Below, piece after piece: positions 30,777 to 37,636 of a stretch of DNA of 39,218 nucleotides. Source of the DNA: Candidatus Rothia avicola (GTDB taxonomy: Bacteria; Actinomycetota; Actinomycetes; Actinomycetales; Micrococcaceae); contig DXCN01000059.1 in the NCBI GenBank assembly GCA_019115985.1, forward strand, positions 1-39,218, read 5' to 3'. The translations under genes and the position numbers were made by a program. Under the pieces are notes generated by a model. That model did not search any database and had not been told where the DNA came from. It saw only the letters and a list, made by a program, of their open reading frames with translations. The stretch's first letter is position 1. Every line of letters starts with the position of its first letter.

Positions 30777-31787
30777 CTACAGCAGGGGTGAGAGTGCCAG
30801 GAAGAGGACTGCCGAGAGAACGAAGCAGGCTGGCATGGTAATAAACCAGGTCAGGATTATGCGGAGCACAATTTTGTGGCGCACGGCGGCAAAGCGCTGG
30901 TTGACCCCTGATCCGAGGACGGCGGAGGCCGCGAGGTGGGAGGACGAGACCGGGGTGTTGAGGAAGAACTGCAGGAGCACCATGGCTAGTGCGGTTGAGC
31001 TTTGGGCAACGGCCCCGCGGAAGGGGTCAACTTTGACCATCTGGTGCGCGAAGGTGTAACCGATGCGGGAGCTGCCCCGGGCGGTGCCGAAACCCAGCAC
31101 CATGGCCAGGAAGATAGCGGAGATGATATAGGTGGTGGGGCGTACGTCGAGCCCGGCGGAAAGTAGGAGAACAGCATAGATGACGACGGCCCGCTGGCCG
31201 GTTTGGATTCCGTGAATCAGGGAAATCAGTGAGTTGGCGAGGGAGAGGACGCTGCGGGAGAAGCGGTTGACGGTGGAGGGGTAGGAGCGTTGGAGCAGAC
31301 CGTAGAAGGGGAAAACCGCTGCCCAGGCGAGCACGAAGAGGACGATGGGGGCCAGAATAAGGGGCACAAAAAGGAAGGTGGCGAGGGGCTCAGAGAAGGG
31401 GGAGGAGATGCCCAGGTCGGTGGCTCGGCCAGCCCAAGCAGCACCGGCAAGACCCCCGAGGAGGGCGTGGGTGGAGGAAGAAGGAATGCGGAACCACCAG
31501 GTAATAATGCCCCAGATAATAGCTGAGACGAGGGCCGTAAGAATGAGCCCCAAGCCGGTGTTGTTGTGGGGCACGGCCAGCCAGTGGGTGGTGACGGAAC
31601 CCAGCATGATACCCGTGATGGCCATGCCGATAGTGTTGAAGAGGGCACTGGTGCGCAGGGCTATTTTAGGGGTTAGGGCCCTGGTTTTGACGGGTATGGC
31701 GGTGGCGTTGGGGGCGTCGTGAAAGCCCGTGACGAAGGTGAAGGCAATCAGGGCCAGGCAGCTGAGGACAAAGAGGGTGAGGGTCAC
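30777..31787 (-). CDS. pit: Inorganic phosphate transporter, PiT family
   Basis: A low-affinity phosphate (metal-phosphate) permease of 336 residues in the cytoplasmic membrane. The PiT signature FVTGFHDAPNATAIPVKTRAL is at the N-terminus, and its inverted counterpart appears as the GFGTARGSSRIGYTFAHQMV and PVSSSHLAASAVLGSG segments. RIPSSSTHALLGGLAGAAWA is another conserved block. About nine or ten transmembrane segments can be counted. The start overlaps the end of the DUF47 gene (TAGTG), so they are translated together. Confidence 0.94.
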   Translation of the reverse strand: MTLTLFVLSCLALIAFTFVTGFHDAPNATAIPVKTRALTPKIALRTSALFNTIGMAITGIMLGSVTTHWLAVPHNNTGLGLILTALVSAIIWGIITWWFRIPSSSTHALLGGLAGAAWAGRATDLGISSPFSEPLATFLFVPLILAPIVLFVLAWAAVFPFYGLLQRSYPSTVNRFSRSVLSLANSLISLIHGIQTGQRAVVIYAVLLLSAGLDVRPTTYIISAIFLAMVLGFGTARGSSRIGYTFAHQMVKVDPFRGAVAQSSTALAMVLLQFFLNTPVSSSHLAASAVLGSGVNQRFAAVRHKIVLRIILTWFITMPACFVLSAVLFLALSPLL

Positions 31788-32404
31788 TAGGATTCCTGCA
31801 CGATGATGCGGCCGATTTCGGTGGCGACGGTGCGCATGGCTTCGGACGCCTCAATGAGTTTATGCACGAAGCGGGTGGTCTGCAGGTAGCGGGTCTGCTT
31901 GTAGCGGTCCTGGATGTCTGCATCGTATTCCTCTGCGATGCGCACGGCCTGCTTGGTGATGCGGAGCATGGTGATCCAGTAGCCGTCGAGGTCGCGCAGG
32001 GTGCTGAGTTTAGGGATGATTTCGGTGGTGAGCACTGCCTGGCGCTGGATGAGGTCGAGCAGGGTCGCTGCCTTGGGCGAGAAACGCACGATGTGGTAGA
32101 GGTGCAGAATATTGGCTGCTGAGGTGAGCTTTTCAACGACGTTATTGAGTGAAACAGCCAGGGTATAGATATCTTCGCGGGGGATAGGCGTTGAAAAGGA
32201 GCTGCGCACAGCGGTCATGGTGGTGTGCAGCATCTCGAGGGTCGCAGCCTCGTGGGTGAGGGTGCGTTCCAGAAGTTCCGGGTAGCGGTCTTCGGGGGAG
32301 CCTACCATTTCTGAGAGCAGGGCAGCTGCTCCGGTGGCCTGTTCTGAGAGCGCGGCGAGGGCGGTCAGCGAGGTGTTTTCTTGGGGGAACATGCGTTGGA
32401 GCAT
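31787..32404 (-). CDS. DUF47 family (PhoU-like) Pit accessory protein
   Basis: A helical PhoU-like protein of about 205 residues of the DUF47 family, which is almost always encoded next to PiT transporters and thought to regulate them. The longer frame from 32551 is not used in my call: ATG 32404 has AGGAGA 9 bases upstream and gives the usual FPQENTSLTALAALSEQATG beginning. The upstream extension would lie in the structured leader. It is the first gene after the candidate regulatory RNA, and overlaps pit by one base. Confidence 0.88.
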   Translation of the reverse strand: MLQRMFPQENTSLTALAALSEQATGAAALLSEMVGSPEDRYPELLERTLTHEAATLEMLHTTMTAVRSSFSTPIPREDIYTLAVSLNNVVEKLTSAANILHLYHIVRFSPKAATLLDLIQRQAVLTTEIIPKLSTLRDLDGYWITMLRITKQAVRIAEEYDADIQDRYKQTRYLQTTRFVHKLIEASEAMRTVATEIGRIIVQES

Positions 32405-32504
32405 GGGCCAGCTCTCCTGGGTGTGGGCGGGTGGGCAGGTGCTGAGCTTATGGTACCGCGCCAAGGTTAACGGGGTGGTGCTCGCCTGTAATGCGGGCGG
32501 ACGC

Positions 32505-32549
32505 AAAAGCCGGGCTACCTGCCTCGTGGAAAGGGAGGCGGAGCCCGGC
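32505..32549 (-). terminator. Terminator-like hairpin in the DUF47-pit leader
   Basis: Read on the minus strand, GCCGGGCT (32549-32542) pairs with AGCCCGGC (32516-32509), with an inner GCCTC/GAGGC stem (32539-32535 with 32525-32521), and is followed by TTTT (32508-32505). It lies about 21 nt after the structured RNA and 100 nt before the start codon, the position expected for an attenuator. Confidence 0.7.
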
Positions 32550-32570
32550 AAATGCGGTATGAAGTTTAGC

Positions 32571-32660
32571 GATGTCAGGCTGGGAGCGCCTCTCGGCGGA
32601 AGGCCGCTCGAAGCGGCTAAAGATTTGGAGCCCGGGGCTACCTATTAGCAGCCTGACATC
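32571..32660 (-). ncRNA. Structured leader RNA of the DUF47-pit operon, candidate riboswitch
   Basis: A perfect 12-bp closing stem, GATGTCAGGCTG and CAGCCTGACATC, spans 32660-32649 with 32582-32571. It encloses three hairpins on the minus strand: AGCC-CCG-GGCT (32639-32629), GCCGCT-TCG-AGCGGC (32617-32603) and CGCC-GAGA-GGCG (32598-32587, a GNRA tetraloop). The result is a four-way junction of 90 nt beginning about 3 nt after the predicted transcription start. The 5' hairpin carries AGGTAGCCC-CGG, which recurs in the 3' arm of the terminator downstream, so the terminator 5' arm could pair with either. I cannot match it from memory to a known riboswitch class. Confidence 0.65.
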
Positions 32661-32669
32661 TTGGTATCT

Positions 32670-32698
32670 ATCATTCTCCTGTTCGCCAGCGGTGTCAA
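32670..32698 (-). promoter_or_regulatory. Promoter of the DUF47-pit operon
   Basis: On the minus strand a consensus -35 TTGACA (32698-32693) is separated by 17 bases from AATGAT (32675-32670). Transcription would start near 32663, just before the structured RNA. Confidence 0.65.
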
Positions 32699-32751: not shown

Positions 32752-33462
32752 TTAGTCGAGGGTTCCAGCCCGCCAGTTGAGGGCGGCTTCTTCGAGCTCG
32801 CGGGCTGTTCCGGTGAGCCTACGGGCAGCGGTTCGCAGGCGGACGGCCCGCGTAGCGGCCTCGTCGCGCACCTCGGCTGAGGGGGTGTGTAGCTCGGTCA
32901 CCTCATCGGGGTGCCGGCCCCTGGGCGAGACCCACTGGCCGTGCCTCAGCTCGAGGGCGACGTCGTCCTGCCCCAAAGCCAGCACGCGGCAGAAAGCCGC
33001 AAAGCGGTTGAGGGCAACGTCGAAGTCACCGGTGTAGGCGCCTGCCAGAATAGCATCGACGGTGGCACAGATTTCGTCGGCGGTCGGTGGTGAGGGCACC
33101 CCGGCCAGAGCCTGAGCCAGGTAGCTGGAGTGCATGCCGCGCTCGTAGTAGTGGCTCATGAGCTGGGAATTAGCACGAATGACACCGCGCAGGGCATAGA
33201 TACGCCAGAGAGCCCCGGCAACAGTCACGGGGGCTGCCCGCGACCAGAGTTCCGCTACGGCTTCGATACCGAACTCGTCGGTGTAGTGCACCAGGCGCTT
33301 GGTGACGGAGGGGTCTTCGTTGGCGCGTCCGCGGGCTAGCAGGGCGCTGGCGGACGCCTGGGCGGCGGCAGCTAGGTCTTCTGGACTGCCAGCGCCCTGG
33401 TAGCGTTCGAATTTTTCGGTAGAGAGGCGGACGGGGCGGTGAAAGCGGGCATCAGAAGGCAT
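32752..33462 (-). CDS. Conserved hypothetical actinobacterial protein
   Basis: A soluble, mostly helical protein of 236 residues with no membrane segment or known catalytic motif. It has an N-terminal RPVRLSTEKFERYQGAGSPE, a region GIEAVAELWSRAAPVTVAGA, and a charged C-terminus with LRTAARRLTGTARELEEAAL. The frame stays open upstream to 33678 but that part reads as a shadow of another gene fragment. ATG 33462 lies 7 bases after TACACT, supporting this start. Its 3' end is 54 bases before the pit promoter. Function unknown. Confidence 0.7.
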   Translation of the reverse strand: MPSDARFHRPVRLSTEKFERYQGAGSPEDLAAAAQASASALLARGRANEDPSVTKRLVHYTDEFGIEAVAELWSRAAPVTVAGALWRIYALRGVIRANSQLMSHYYERGMHSSYLAQALAGVPSPPTADEICATVDAILAGAYTGDFDVALNRFAAFCRVLALGQDDVALELRHGQWVSPRGRHPDEVTELHTPSAEVRDEAATRAVRLRTAARRLTGTARELEEAALNWRAGTLD

Positions 33463-33468
33463 GCCTAC

Positions 33469-33475
33469 CAGTGTA
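33469..33475 (-). promoter_or_regulatory. -10 box of a leaderless promoter for the gene at 32752-33462
   Basis: TACACT on the minus strand lies about 7 nt before ATG 33462, within the sequence AGTTCTACACTGGTAGGC. Confidence 0.45.
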
Positions 33476-33500
33476 GAACTGCTACGGGAAGAGGGAAAGG

Positions 33501-33712
33501 TTATGTGCTGAGAGGTAAAACCCGGGTGCGGGTGATGATGCTGGTGAGCAGGAGGGCAATGATGGCGAGCTGCAGGCAGGCCCGCAGGATAGCGATATAG
33601 GGCTGCTGCGGAGCTGAATCTTTTGGGCAGCGAACAGGGCCGTGGTGAGGCCGACGAAGAGTAGGAGGGCTGCGGCATAGTGGGTGAGGAGGGTGTTCAG
33701 TGGGGCGGTCAC
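33501..33712 (-). pseudogene. Truncated, frameshifted fragment resembling a FetB-type permease
   Basis: From GTG 33712 one frame reads LNTLLTHYAAALLLFVGL and then AAQKIQLRS. After a frame change it continues as QQPYIAILRACLQLAIIALL up to a stop at 33501. The total of 212 bases is not a multiple of three. Together the two parts look like the first transmembrane segments of FetB/UPF0014 iron-export permeases (usual length about 260), including the AxxRAxxQL pattern. The rest of the gene is missing. The similarity is by pattern recognition only. Confidence 0.5.
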
Positions 33713-33817: not shown

Positions 33818-33890
33818 GCGCCTTTAGCTCAGTTGGTAGAGCATCGGACTTTTAATCCGTGGGTCGTGGGTTCGAGCCCCACAGGGCGCA
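33818..33890 (+). tRNA. tRNA-Lys (anticodon TTT)
   Basis: The acceptor stem GCGCCTT (33818-33824) pairs with AGGGCGC (33883-33889) with one G-U pair, and the discriminator is A. The D-arm GCTCAGTTGGTAGAGC, an anticodon arm with loop CTTTTAA (anticodon TTT) and a T-arm GTGGG-TTCGAGC-CCCAC are all present. CCA is not encoded. Its 3' side borders a mosaic region, so it may be an integration site. Confidence 0.97.
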
Positions 33891-34197
33891 CATTGTCACC
33901 CCGTTCCGGCGATGCCGGGGCGGGGTTTTCTGTATCTTCACCGGTGAGGGGTGCATCAACTACAGGACCAAGAAGCTGTCCGAGGGTGATTCCCATATGT
34001 GCCGCAATCACACCTAAGTCGTTGATGGTAAACGCGCTTACTCCTCGAAGTCTCTTTGATAAAGCAGAGTGGGCCATGCCTATTTTGTCTGCCAGTTGAC
34101 GGGCACTTAGTCCACGTCTTCCCATCCAGGCCTTTACCTCCCCTGCAACAGCTTGTTCAAATTCAGAAACAGGGCCACTTGTCCATGTCTTAGGCAT
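33829..34197 (-). CDS. XRE-family helix-turn-helix regulator reading into the tRNA gene
   Basis: A protein of about 122 residues with a Cro/CI-type helix-turn-helix at about residues 28-80: GLSARQLADKIGMAHSALSK is the turn region and LGVIAAHMGITLGQLL the following helices. The N-terminus EFEQAVAGEVKAWMGRRG is intact. The last 20 codons are the antisense of the tRNA-Lys gene, a frequent outcome when a mobile element inserts at a tRNA 3' end. GGGAGG lies just before ATGATG; spacing is short for either ATG. It may be a phage- or element-type repressor. Confidence 0.7.
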   Translation of the reverse strand: MPKTWTSGPVSEFEQAVAGEVKAWMGRRGLSARQLADKIGMAHSALSKRLRGVSAFTINDLGVIAAHMGITLGQLLGPVVDAPLTGEDTENPAPASPERGDNVRPVGLEPTTHGLKVRCSTN

Positions 34198-34201
34198 CAT
34201 G

Positions 34202-34710
34202 CCTCCCTACGACGCGATGACCTCTACACCGACCATGGTCTCTCCGGCGCACTGGCCAAACGCCCCGGCTTGGATAAAGCACTGACTGCACTGCATCCGG
34301 GTGACACGCTCGTGATCACCACTTTGGACAGGCTCGGGCGCTCCACCCAGAAAATGCTCGAACTCGCCGAGGAACTACGAGATCGCAATATCGGATTGTG
34401 CGTGCTCAACCTGGGTGGTGGTGATGTGGATACTAAAACACCCATGGGTGCCATGGTCTTCACCGTCATGGCAGCCCTGGCCCAAATGGAACTAGAGATT
34501 AAACGCGAATGCATCACCGACTCCGTCACCAAACGCCGCCCCACCGGCGGCGACCGCGGTGGCCGACGCCCCACCTTCACTGAATCCCAAATCCGCACCG
34601 CATTCAAACTCATCTAAGCCGGCGAACCTGCAACCCAAGTTGCCAAGGATATGGGGATGTCCCGTGCGACGCTTTACCGAAGAATCAAAGACGCGGATTC
34701 TTCTTTATAG
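34202..34710 (+). pseudogene. Broken serine recombinase (resolvase)
   Basis: Residues from DDLYTDHGLSGALAKRPGLD onward, with TLDRLGRSTQKMLELAEELR, PMGAMVFTVMAALAQMELE and a C-terminal helix-turn-helix AGEPATQVAKDMGMSRATLY, are those of a Tn3-type resolvase/invertase. The first 40-45 residues with the catalytic Ser are missing: upstream is the start of the XRE gene on the other strand. A TAA at 34615-34617 interrupts the frame just before the helix-turn-helix, where related proteins usually have Glu (GAA), and the frame then continues 30 codons to TAG at 34708. It is thus doubly disabled. Confidence 0.85.
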
Positions 34711-35330: not shown

Positions 35331-35699
35331 ATGATGAACATTGAGTCGCGGATCGATGCGATGAACCGGCTTGGTCGCGCCATGGCCGACCCCACCCGGT
35401 CACGCATCCTCCTGTCCTTGCTGCACGAACCCGGATACCCAGCGGAACTTGCCCAGGCCCTGGGACTGAGCCGCGCCAACGTTTCCAACCATCTGACCTG
35501 CCTGCGCGGGTGCGGAATTGTCGTGGCGAAAATGGAAGGCCGCAAAACCCGGTACGAAATCACCGATCCTCACCTCACCACCGCCCTGAGTGCCCTGGTT
35601 GAGGTGACGTTGGCCGTCGATGATCAAGTACCTTGCCTGGACTCTTCCTGCCCTGACTGCGCCACCAGCGCCGATCGAGAACACAAGGAGCAAGCATGA
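35331..35699 (+). CDS. cmtR: ArsR/SmtB-family Cd/Pb sensor CmtR
   Basis: A metal-responsive repressor of 122 residues with a winged helix-turn-helix (LAQALGLSRANVSNHLTCLR). Cys57 and Cys61 in the recognition helix (LTCLRGC) and Cys102 occupy the same residue numbers as the Cd/Pb ligands of Mycobacterium tuberculosis CmtR. Additional Cys follow in SSCPDC near the C-terminus. Metal binding releases the protein from the operator at 35304. The transcript is predicted leaderless. ATGA overlap with the next gene shows co-translation. Confidence 0.9.
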   Translation: MMNIESRIDAMNRLGRAMADPTRSRILLSLLHEPGYPAELAQALGLSRANVSNHLTCLRGCGIVVAKMEGRKTRYEITDPHLTTALSALVEVTLAVDDQVPCLDSSCPDCATSADREHKEQA

Positions 35700-37636
35700 G
35701 TTCCGCCTGCGGTTGCGATTCACCGGAACCCACCGAAGAATTCGAAGAGGAACTGCCCTGGTGGCGGGATTGGCATGTGCTCGTCCCCATAGCCTCAGGC
35801 ATTTTCTTCCTCACTGGGCTCGTCCTTGAATGGAGCACCCACGGCGAAAGCACCGCCATCGTGGCCTTGGTGCTGTTTTGGATCGGCCTGCTACTAGGCG
35901 CTTTTACCTTTGTACCCGGCGCCCTGCGAAACCTGTTCACGAAACGGAAACTCGGCATTGGGCTGCTAATGACCATCAGCGCCACCGGTGCGGTCATCCT
36001 CGGCTATGTCGAGGAAGCCGCAGCCCTGGCGTTCCTGTATTCCATTGCCGAAGCCCTGGAAGACAAAGCCATGGACAGGGCACGCTCGGGCCTGCGCTCT
36101 TTGTTGAAGCTCGTCCCTGAAACGGCCACCGTCATCCGTGACGGCGCACCGGTCGTGGTCAGTACAGCAGAGATCAAGATTGGCGATTCACTGCGCGTGA
36201 AGCCTGGTGAACGCTTGGCAACCGATGGCGTGGTCAGTCAAGGATCAAGCAGCTTAGACACCTCCGCTATCACGGGGGAATCAATTCCCATGGAAGTAAC
36301 CGTGGGTGACCAGGTTGCTGCTGGTTCCATCAATTCATCCGGCGCTCTAGTAGTCACTGCAACGGCGAACGGCACGGACAACTCCCTGACCACGTTGGTG
36401 AGCCTAGTCGAGCAAGCCCAGTCGGAACGTGGCGAACGGGCACGGCTCGCTGACCGCATTGCCCGCCCGCTGGTTCCCGGTGTCATCGTCCTGGCAGTAC
36501 TGGTCGCTGTGCTTGGAGCGATCTTTGGCGATCCCGAAACATGGATCACACGCGCACTGATCGTGCTGGTCGCAGCCTCGCCTTGCGCGATGGCCATCGC
36601 CGTTCCTGTCACCGTTGTGTCCGCCATCGGAGCTGCCAGCAAATTCGGTGTCATCATCAAAAGCGGAGCAGCCTTCGAACGGCTTGGTTCCCTGCGCCGC
36701 ATCGCGGTAGATAAAACTGGAACGCTCACACGCAATCAGCCAGTGGTCACGCAAGTCCAGACTGTTGATGATGCGACCAGCGATGAGGTGCTCGCCGTTG
36801 CCGCCGCCCTGGAACAGCACAGCACCCACCCTCTAGCTACGGCCATCATCTCAGCAGTACCCGCAATCCCGGAGGCAACGGCGGTTAACGAAGAGCCAGG
36901 ACACGGCATTACCGGCGTCCTGGATGGTGTTCAGGTCGGGGTAGGTAGTCCTCGATGGATTGCCCCAGGATCGCTTACTTCCGCCGTTGAATCCATGGAA
37001 GCCTCCGGGCAAACCTGCGTCATGGTCACTCGTGCAGAGCAGGTCATTGGCGTGATCGGCGTGCGCGATGAACTACGCCCTGAAGCGGCCGAGGCAATTC
37101 GAGACCTGCATAACCAGGGAATCGACGTGGTGATGCTCACCGGCGATAACTCCCGTACTGCCCACGCGCTGGCTTCAATCGCCGGTATAGGCACCGTTCA
37201 TGCCGAACTGCGACCTGAAGACAAGGCCCGTGAAATCGCTTCGTCAGTGCAGCAGGTTCCTACAGGGATGATCGGTGACGGGATCAACGATGCCCCTGCC
37301 TTGGCTAGCGCTACCGTGGGGATTGCGATGGGCGCTACCGGTGCCGATGCCGCCATAGAATCAGCCGATGTAGCCTTCACCGGCCATGATTTGAGACTGA
37401 TTCCGCAAGCCTTGTCCCATGCCCAACGGGGCCGGGCGATAATGAATCAGAACATCGTCCTGTCAATGGCGATCATCGTTGTCCTGTTGCCCTTGGCTAT
37501 TACCGGAGTGCTGGGCTTGGCCGCGGTAGTGCTGGTTCACGAGGTCGCAGAAGTCATCGTGATTGCCAATGGACTTCGTGTTGCCCGCGTCCACCGCAAG
37601 CAGCTCACACAGCAGCCTGGCAACGTCCTACATTAG
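35696..37636 (+). CDS. Heavy-metal P1B-type ATPase (CtpG/CadA-like efflux pump)
   Basis: A 646-residue metal-exporting ATPase under CmtR control. It has no N-terminal HMA domain, only a short CGC motif at residues 5-7. The sequence shows TGESIP in the actuator domain (about 194-199), the membrane motif SPC (295-297), DKTGT with phosphorylated Asp339, the nucleotide-domain HP (about 377), MLTGDN and GDGINDAP. SPC instead of CPC and HEVAE in the last membrane segment resemble P1B-4 type pumps (Co/Cd/Zn range). With CmtR, cadmium, lead or zinc are the likely substrates (inference). Codon use differs mildly from the backbone. Confidence 0.9.
   Translation: MSSACGCDSPEPTEEFEEELPWWRDWHVLVPIASGIFFLTGLVLEWSTHGESTAIVALVLFWIGLLLGAFTFVPGALRNLFTKRKLGIGLLMTISATGAVILGYVEEAAALAFLYSIAEALEDKAMDRARSGLRSLLKLVPETATVIRDGAPVVVSTAEIKIGDSLRVKPGERLATDGVVSQGSSSLDTSAITGESIPMEVTVGDQVAAGSINSSGALVVTATANGTDNSLTTLVSLVEQAQSERGERARLADRIARPLVPGVIVLAVLVAVLGAIFGDPETWITRALIVLVAASPCAMAIAVPVTVVSAIGAASKFGVIIKSGAAFERLGSLRRIAVDKTGTLTRNQPVVTQVQTVDDATSDEVLAVAAALEQHSTHPLATAIISAVPAIPEATAVNEEPGHGITGVLDGVQVGVGSPRWIAPGSLTSAVESMEASGQTCVMVTRAEQVIGVIGVRDELRPEAAEAIRDLHNQGIDVVMLTGDNSRTAHALASIAGIGTVHAELRPEDKAREIASSVQQVPTGMIGDGINDAPALASATVGIAMGATGADAAIESADVAFTGHDLRLIPQALSHAQRGRAIMNQNIVLSMAIIVVLLPLAITGVLGLAAVVLVHEVAEVIVIANGLRVARVHRKQLTQQPGNVLH

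Follow-up and report, generated by a model that had tools for sequence, protein, structure and literature searches.

OxyS is a stress-induced small RNA (sRNA), and scr2952 is reportedly an sRNA of Streptomyces coelicolor described by Vockenhuber et al. in 2011. The accessible sections of the published literature name scr2952 among the experimentally confirmed ncRNAs of S. coelicolor (PMC8388888), list SCO2952 as a HelD homologue (PMC10719064) and, where they mention scr2952, describe its conservation within Streptomyces only. The same partial sources describe 6C RNA, an actinobacterial sRNA that is conserved across genera and consists of two hairpins with C-rich loops (PMC8388888, PMC4046766), and Ms1/6S, an sRNA that is found in the majority of Actinobacteria (PMC9130861) and is reported beside a HAD hydrolase gene.

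The element described here lies on the minus strand of a 39,218-nt stretch of Candidatus Rothia avicola DNA, the whole of which we call the window. We consider it likely that the element encodes a structured sRNA that is free-standing, acts in trans and belongs to an uncatalogued family extending across the class Actinomycetes. The RNA resembles 6C RNA in being an actinobacterial sRNA with a C-rich loop and conservation across genera, but it forms a four-way junction instead of two C-loop hairpins and does not match the 6C model of Rfam where scanned. It is comparable to Ms1/6S in its broad occurrence and differs from it in having a core of 90–98 nt with four helices and no 6S match in Rfam. 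The likeness to OxyS is one of regulation: in the lineages where GGAA[C/T]-N17-19-GTT precedes the RNA, it appears to be under the control of a stress regulator. In a Streptomyces-like genome the subtype-I RNA (locus L144) adjoins a UvrD-family helicase gene, which we take as HelD-type, and the Streptomyces copy is probably scr2952, judging by its gene neighbourhood. A difference is that the accessible part of PMC8388888 places scr2952 in Rfam, whereas no family reached threshold in the present loci.

Scans of the window, 20 class loci and 20 subtype-II loci with Rfam 15 at the gathering threshold matched only tRNAs, and permissive scans of the leader stretch and related loci gave only sub-threshold hits. 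A scan of the leader, which the initial annotation of this DNA had proposed, thus matched no known RNA family. Known Rfam families, including 6C, 6S, SRP, tmRNA, the Scr sRNAs and riboswitches, were rejected as candidates because none reached threshold where scanned. In the literature covered, partly in excerpt, we found no description of a class-wide family, of its fold, of two subtypes or of stress-type promoters, and the accessible text of PMC3765725, PMC9205884, PMC8780764 and PMC11109978 likewise does not describe the family; supplementary tables and most subscription papers fell outside this scope, so prior notice is possible.

The leader region in the Rothia window

The initial annotation had described a promoter, a 90-nt structured RNA, a terminator and the start codon of a DUF47-pit operon in this order, and all of these parts were found on the minus strand, to which all coordinates of the leader refer. 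The promoter is as described, with a -35 element TTGACA (32693..32698) separated by 17 nt from a -10 element AATGAT (32670..32675). The pentamer TTGAC is fixed at the matching distance in Rothia, and AATGAT is a weak assignment. Throughout the Micrococcaceae the -10 element departs from TANNNT, which fits one of 30 Rothia upstream regions and none of the 25 from other genera, and AAGACT- or AAAACT-like elements recur. The gap between promoter and RNA, given as about 3 nt, needs correction, as nine nucleotides separate the -10 hexamer from the stem. The RNA core occupies 32566..32663, where it is matched by both covariance models described below (R1 and R2). It is closed by the 12-bp stem P1, in which the 5′ strand GATGTCAGGCTG (32649..32660) pairs with the 3′ strand CAGCCTGACATC (32571..32582), and P1 encloses the three hairpins P2 (GGTAGCCCCGGGCTCC, 32627..32642), P3 (GCCGCTTCGAGCGGC, 32603..32617) and P4 (CGCC-GAGA-GGCG, 32587..32598), the last with the GAGA loop noted earlier. 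The intrinsic terminator at 32505..32549 comprises a hairpin (32549–32509) and a TTTT tract (32508–32505), and its sequence is not conserved among related loci. The ATG of the DUF47 gene, at 32404, follows 100 nt past the terminator. The fold of the leader is more stable than expected by chance, with one of 200 shuffles of the 295-nt sequence equally stable (z = -3.1). Transcription would most likely start at or just before P1, would proceed through a core of ~95 nt and would end at the terminator, giving an RNA of ~150 nt in all.

The downstream neighbours are a DUF47/PhoU-like protein (31787..32404, minus strand), which matches PF01865 at E = 3.4e-4, under the Pfam cut-off, and whose named relatives belong to Rothia in 10 of 10 cases, and a PiT phosphate transporter (30777..31787, minus strand; PF01384, E = 2.8e-48). 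On the other side of the RNA is a frequent upstream neighbour, the uncharacterised protein UP (32752..33678, minus strand), which has no Pfam or NCBIfam match and is helical in its AF2 model. Homologues of UP match only up to ~33459, so its real start may be internal; the UP alignment leaves out loci L024 and L063, in each of which a stop was reported in the chosen range. Further along the window, a tRNA gene is found near a resolvase-domain ORF, an ArsR-type regulator and a P-type (E1-E2) ATPase (33818–33890, 34153–34617 and 35331–37636, all on the plus strand), a cluster that is perhaps a tRNA-linked insertion carrying metal resistance.

Distribution, fold and covariation

The initial annotation had made its reading depend on the structure being kept in close relatives, and with the leader as blastn query the RNA was found in 35 of 35 Rothia genomes. 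The Rothia loci used below number 31, as 30 of the 35 genomes gave a locus in this search and one was added later. A 106-nt blastn query found the RNA in 292 of the 295 family genomes sampled, covering 32 of 32 genera, and those of the 292 genomes with a retrieved locus entered the family alignment. The covariance model R1, built from 26 blastn-found family sequences, matched 293 of the 297 genomes sampled from the order, representing 20 families; two of the four genomes without a match measure 0.8–0.9 Mb and the other two are 75–76% complete. In the class sample, R1 matched 167 of 296 genomes and the broader model R2 matched 190. In a phylum sample, which doubles as a negative control, R2 matched 23 of 296 genomes, 22 of them within the class, and the sole match outside the class is weak (E = 0.0033). 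In the order, the R1 search usually found one copy of the RNA per genome; each of 12 genomes listed for family f14 has two to four copies. Tandem copies 88 nt apart were observed at locus L197 (G772:C1:1926886-1926979 and 1927068-1927161). Given its near-universal presence in the order, its occurrence in Streptomyces- and Mycobacterium-like genomes and no Rfam 15 match where scanned, the RNA would rank among the widest uncatalogued bacterial sRNAs.

Covariation among related leaders, suggested at the outset as a check, is strong in P1. In the class alignment A2, which contains 71 chosen diverse loci, 98.2% of cells are standard pairs, 15 of 23 pairs changed on both sides, and covariation reaches a score of 0.366, compared with 0.175 ± 0.007 in shuffles, none of 500 of which scored as high. 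All 11 modelled pairs of P1 show compensatory changes, and sliding the partner strand by one to three columns lowers the paired share to 35–40%. These counts are biased towards structure to the extent that most A2 sequences outside the Micrococcaceae were retrieved with the structure model. The Micrococcaceae set A1 (26 of 41 loci) was obtained by blastn only; it is 99.7% paired, with changes on both sides in nine of 12 P1 pairs, and its further pair types are not above shuffles (17 vs 17.9). The hairpins P2, P3 and P4 vary little across the 71 sequences of A2: the CCCC and GG of P2 are invariant (71 of 71), one C-G pair of P3 is replaced by U-A in 12 sequences, and P4 scarcely varies. The pairs of P3 and P4 hardly vary and therefore rest mainly on conservation. 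A small protein gene or a mobile repeat is an extremely improbable explanation of this pattern. Protein coding was rejected because even the best reading frame stays open in only 51 of the 71 sequences and the spacing of P2–P4 is not in multiples of three; a mobile repeat is contradicted by the mostly single copy of the RNA in the order.

Flanking genes, terminator and the proposed riboswitch

The initial annotation interpreted the element as a riboswitch or attenuator of DUF47-pit that senses phosphate, Mg or a metabolite, and the order of promoter, RNA, terminator and gene in the window agrees with such a device. We compared the genes flanking the RNA in 31 Rothia loci, 25 loci from other Micrococcaceae, 35 from other families of the order and 42 from the class outside the order, with tblastn at E 1e-3, a threshold at which a diverged DUF47 can escape. 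In the 450 nt downstream of the RNA, a co-directional DUF47 gene was detected in 28 of 31 Rothia loci, 19 of 25 loci from other Micrococcaceae and 11 of 35 loci from other order families (not detected in the remaining 24), and PiT in the retrieved downstream stretch in 29 of 31, 19 of 25 and 19 of 35 loci, respectively. These associations also favour a pit riboswitch, but in the class outside the order neither gene was detected downstream of the RNA in any of the 42 loci, and on this ground a pit-specific riboswitch was rejected. The counts by group suggest that the pit neighbourhood is old within the order and not common to the class. No constant downstream gene was found across the class among the loci compared, and rough ORF calling placed the next gene on the other strand in eight of 12 class loci. 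In the Streptomyces-like genome, the RNA is flanked by the helicase gene and by a malic enzyme gene that HU follows; in a Mycobacterium-like genome its neighbours are a WhiB gene on one side and, on the other, a convergent carboxyl transferase gene. UP was found upstream of the RNA in 21 of 31 Rothia loci, 19 of 25 loci from other Micrococcaceae, 28 of 35 from other order families and 22 of 42 class loci. An obligate link between the RNA and UP was rejected, as 15 of 18 tested genomes with the RNA lack UP; most of the 18 were picked because UP was missing beside the RNA.

Terminators are enriched behind the RNA. Within 100 nt downstream, hairpins scoring at least 32 were found in 70 of 196 distinct stretches versus nine of 588 shuffles, and at a score of 24 in 85 of 196 versus 62 of 588. 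The scan requires a nearly unbroken stem; it leaves about two thirds of the loci without a strong terminator and also misses the bulged terminator of the window. Among loci the terminator drifts freely while the RNA core stays conserved, which does not favour regulation of pit through the terminator. The mechanism proposed by the initial annotation relied on AGGTAGCCC(C)CGG, which occurs in hairpin 1 and in the 3′ arm of the terminator and would give the 5′ arm of the terminator two mutually exclusive partners. Both occurrences are present in the window, but the mutually exclusive pairing is not conserved: AGGTAGCCC is found downstream exactly in five of 31 Rothia loci and with at most one mismatch in nine of 31. 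When forced in the one five-pair register tried, the alternative pairing gave -54.2 kcal/mol versus -73.5 kcal/mol, ~19 kcal/mol worse, and with AGGTAGCCC so rarely kept the alternative terminator pairing was rejected. No conserved anti-terminator or expression platform was seen beside the RNA in the loci compared. With a copy number of usually one per genome and varied neighbours as well, a riboswitch or attenuator dedicated to DUF47-pit is highly unlikely. What holds from the initial annotation is a conserved structured RNA that has its own promoter-like elements, strong covariation and no match in Rfam where scanned. The promoter, RNA, terminator and gene layout of one genome can mimic a riboswitch.

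The RNA could also have a dual role, as a trans-acting sRNA that was co-opted in the Micrococcaceae and part of the order as the attenuated leader of DUF47-pit, with expression through terminator read-through. The co-directional DUF47 or PiT genes in most Micrococcaceae and many order loci, and a distance of ~165 nt between RNA and DUF47 in the window, would fit this arrangement, but the freely drifting terminator and the lack of a conserved anti-terminator in the loci compared make it unlikely. As read from sequence, the family combines a common fold and its covariation, promoter-like elements in most lineages, terminator enrichment, unrelated flanks and a change of promoter type. Taken together, the fold, covariation, promoter-like elements, terminator enrichment and varied neighbours are best explained by a free-standing sRNA, to which pit is an old neighbour in this order.

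Promoter types, subtype II and possible function

Over all groups together, family f38 included, 167 of the 197 distinct upstream regions contain at least one of the tested promoter elements. In Rothia, each of the 30 distinct upstream regions has TTGAC at the expected distance (0.76 expected), as do 17 of 25 loci from other Micrococcaceae; the other eight have none of the tested elements. In the other families of the order, TANNNT lies 0–9 nt ahead of the RNA in 30 of 35 loci (1.43 expected), and it is present in 13 of 13 loci of family f45. In the subtype-I class loci outside f38 and f45, GGAA[C/T]-N17-19-GTT is found just before the RNA in 27 of 39 (0.08 expected); elsewhere it fits two of 90 order loci, none of 10 loci in f38 and none of 13 in f45. 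The 30 fits considered in detail, three of them subtype II, come from families f22, f25, f36, f37, f39, f41, f47 and f57, with a spacer of 18 nt in 23 and 19 nt in seven, and with GTT located 3–10 nt ahead of the RNA model. According to the accessible part of PMC10012870, the SigH consensus is GGAAT-N18-19-GTT, the SigH/SigE consensus is GGAAC-N17-18-cGTT, and SigR of S. coelicolor is encoded by the orthologue of SigH.

In most groups these elements occur far above their frequency in shuffles, and the RNA is predicted to carry its own promoter in most lineages, f38 excepted. In the class lineages the upstream sequence apparently fits the SigR/SigH/SigE stress type, making the RNA a putative member of that regulon. 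TANNNT likewise fits 24 of the same 39 class loci, its overlap with GTTAGNNT accounting for part of these fits, and dual recognition is therefore possible; together with f38 and the eight Micrococcaceae loci in which no tested element was recognised, these double fits make the sigma factor uncertain. In Rothia, where the promoter resembles the primary type, expression is expected to be constitutive, and we infer stress induction only where the GGAA[C/T] promoter precedes the RNA. SigR/SigH/SigE-type sigma factors would induce the RNA under redox, heat or envelope stress in Streptomyces-, Mycobacterium- and Pseudonocardia-like lineages, and the stress-type promoters offer an immediate experimental handle. 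None of the tested elements was found in any of the 10 f38 loci, in which a conserved block GGCGACAGCC..C(C/T)CTCG-like precedes the RNA (loci L116, L119, L120, L122, L123, L125, L126, L127, L139 and L141), and this block is possibly an extra hairpin or the site of a different sigma factor.

The longer, weaker copies found by R2 form a second subtype, subtype II. Subtype II retains P1, the CCCCGGG of P2, and P4, while its P3 is enlarged, with internal bases that are conserved and a tip that varies in some of the copies; the alignment A5 holds 38 of 42 distinct subtype-II sequences. The model R3, built from five of these copies, matches 70 of 296 class genomes, often two to four times in family f35, with some weak hits that are subtype-I loci. 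Since 20 of the 70 lie outside the 190 genomes that R2 matched, ~210 of 296 carry one or both subtypes. GGAA[C/T]-N17-19-GTT precedes subtype II in 35 of 45 loci overall (~0.1 expected), made up of 32 of 40 loci and three of five further loci, and in family f35 it is found upstream of 26 of 30.

The RNA is proposed to act in trans and to fold into a four-way junction; its hairpins P2 (which contains CCCCGGG), P3 and P4 (whose loop is of the GNRA type) are nearly invariant. The hairpin loops are constant while the sequence of P1 varies freely, a pattern that favours a protein as partner. Therefore, P2–P4 may form a rigid surface for a conserved partner that is more likely a protein than one mRNA, an interpretation to which we give slightly less than even weight. 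Repression of mRNAs by base pairing, through the C-rich P2 loop or the CUCC stretches, is a possible but doubtful alternative: the CCCC is invariant in 71 of 71 sequences and 6C RNA, another actinobacterial sRNA, has C-rich loops in the available account (PMC8388888), yet the CUCC beside P2 is not retained in Streptomyces-like copies and much of the conservation falls in stems and stable loops. The variable closing stem around a constant junction is also an aptamer-like pattern, and the larger conserved P3 of subtype II would suit an sRNA that senses a ligand, such as a redox metabolite. However, no conserved expression platform adjoins the RNA and the downstream gene is not constant across the class, so that a ligand-sensing sRNA appears rather improbable. 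More tentatively, for the free-standing sRNA that we prefer, the two subtypes might together constitute a class-wide family that gives the SigR/SigH/SigE stress response of Actinobacteria its common RNA arm, binding a protein or metabolite and transcribed from a housekeeping-type promoter in the Rothia order, where it is near-universal, and from stress ECF promoters elsewhere. The subtype-II loci (L190–L194 and L213–L252) are mostly from f35 and f37 genomes, with up to four copies per genome.
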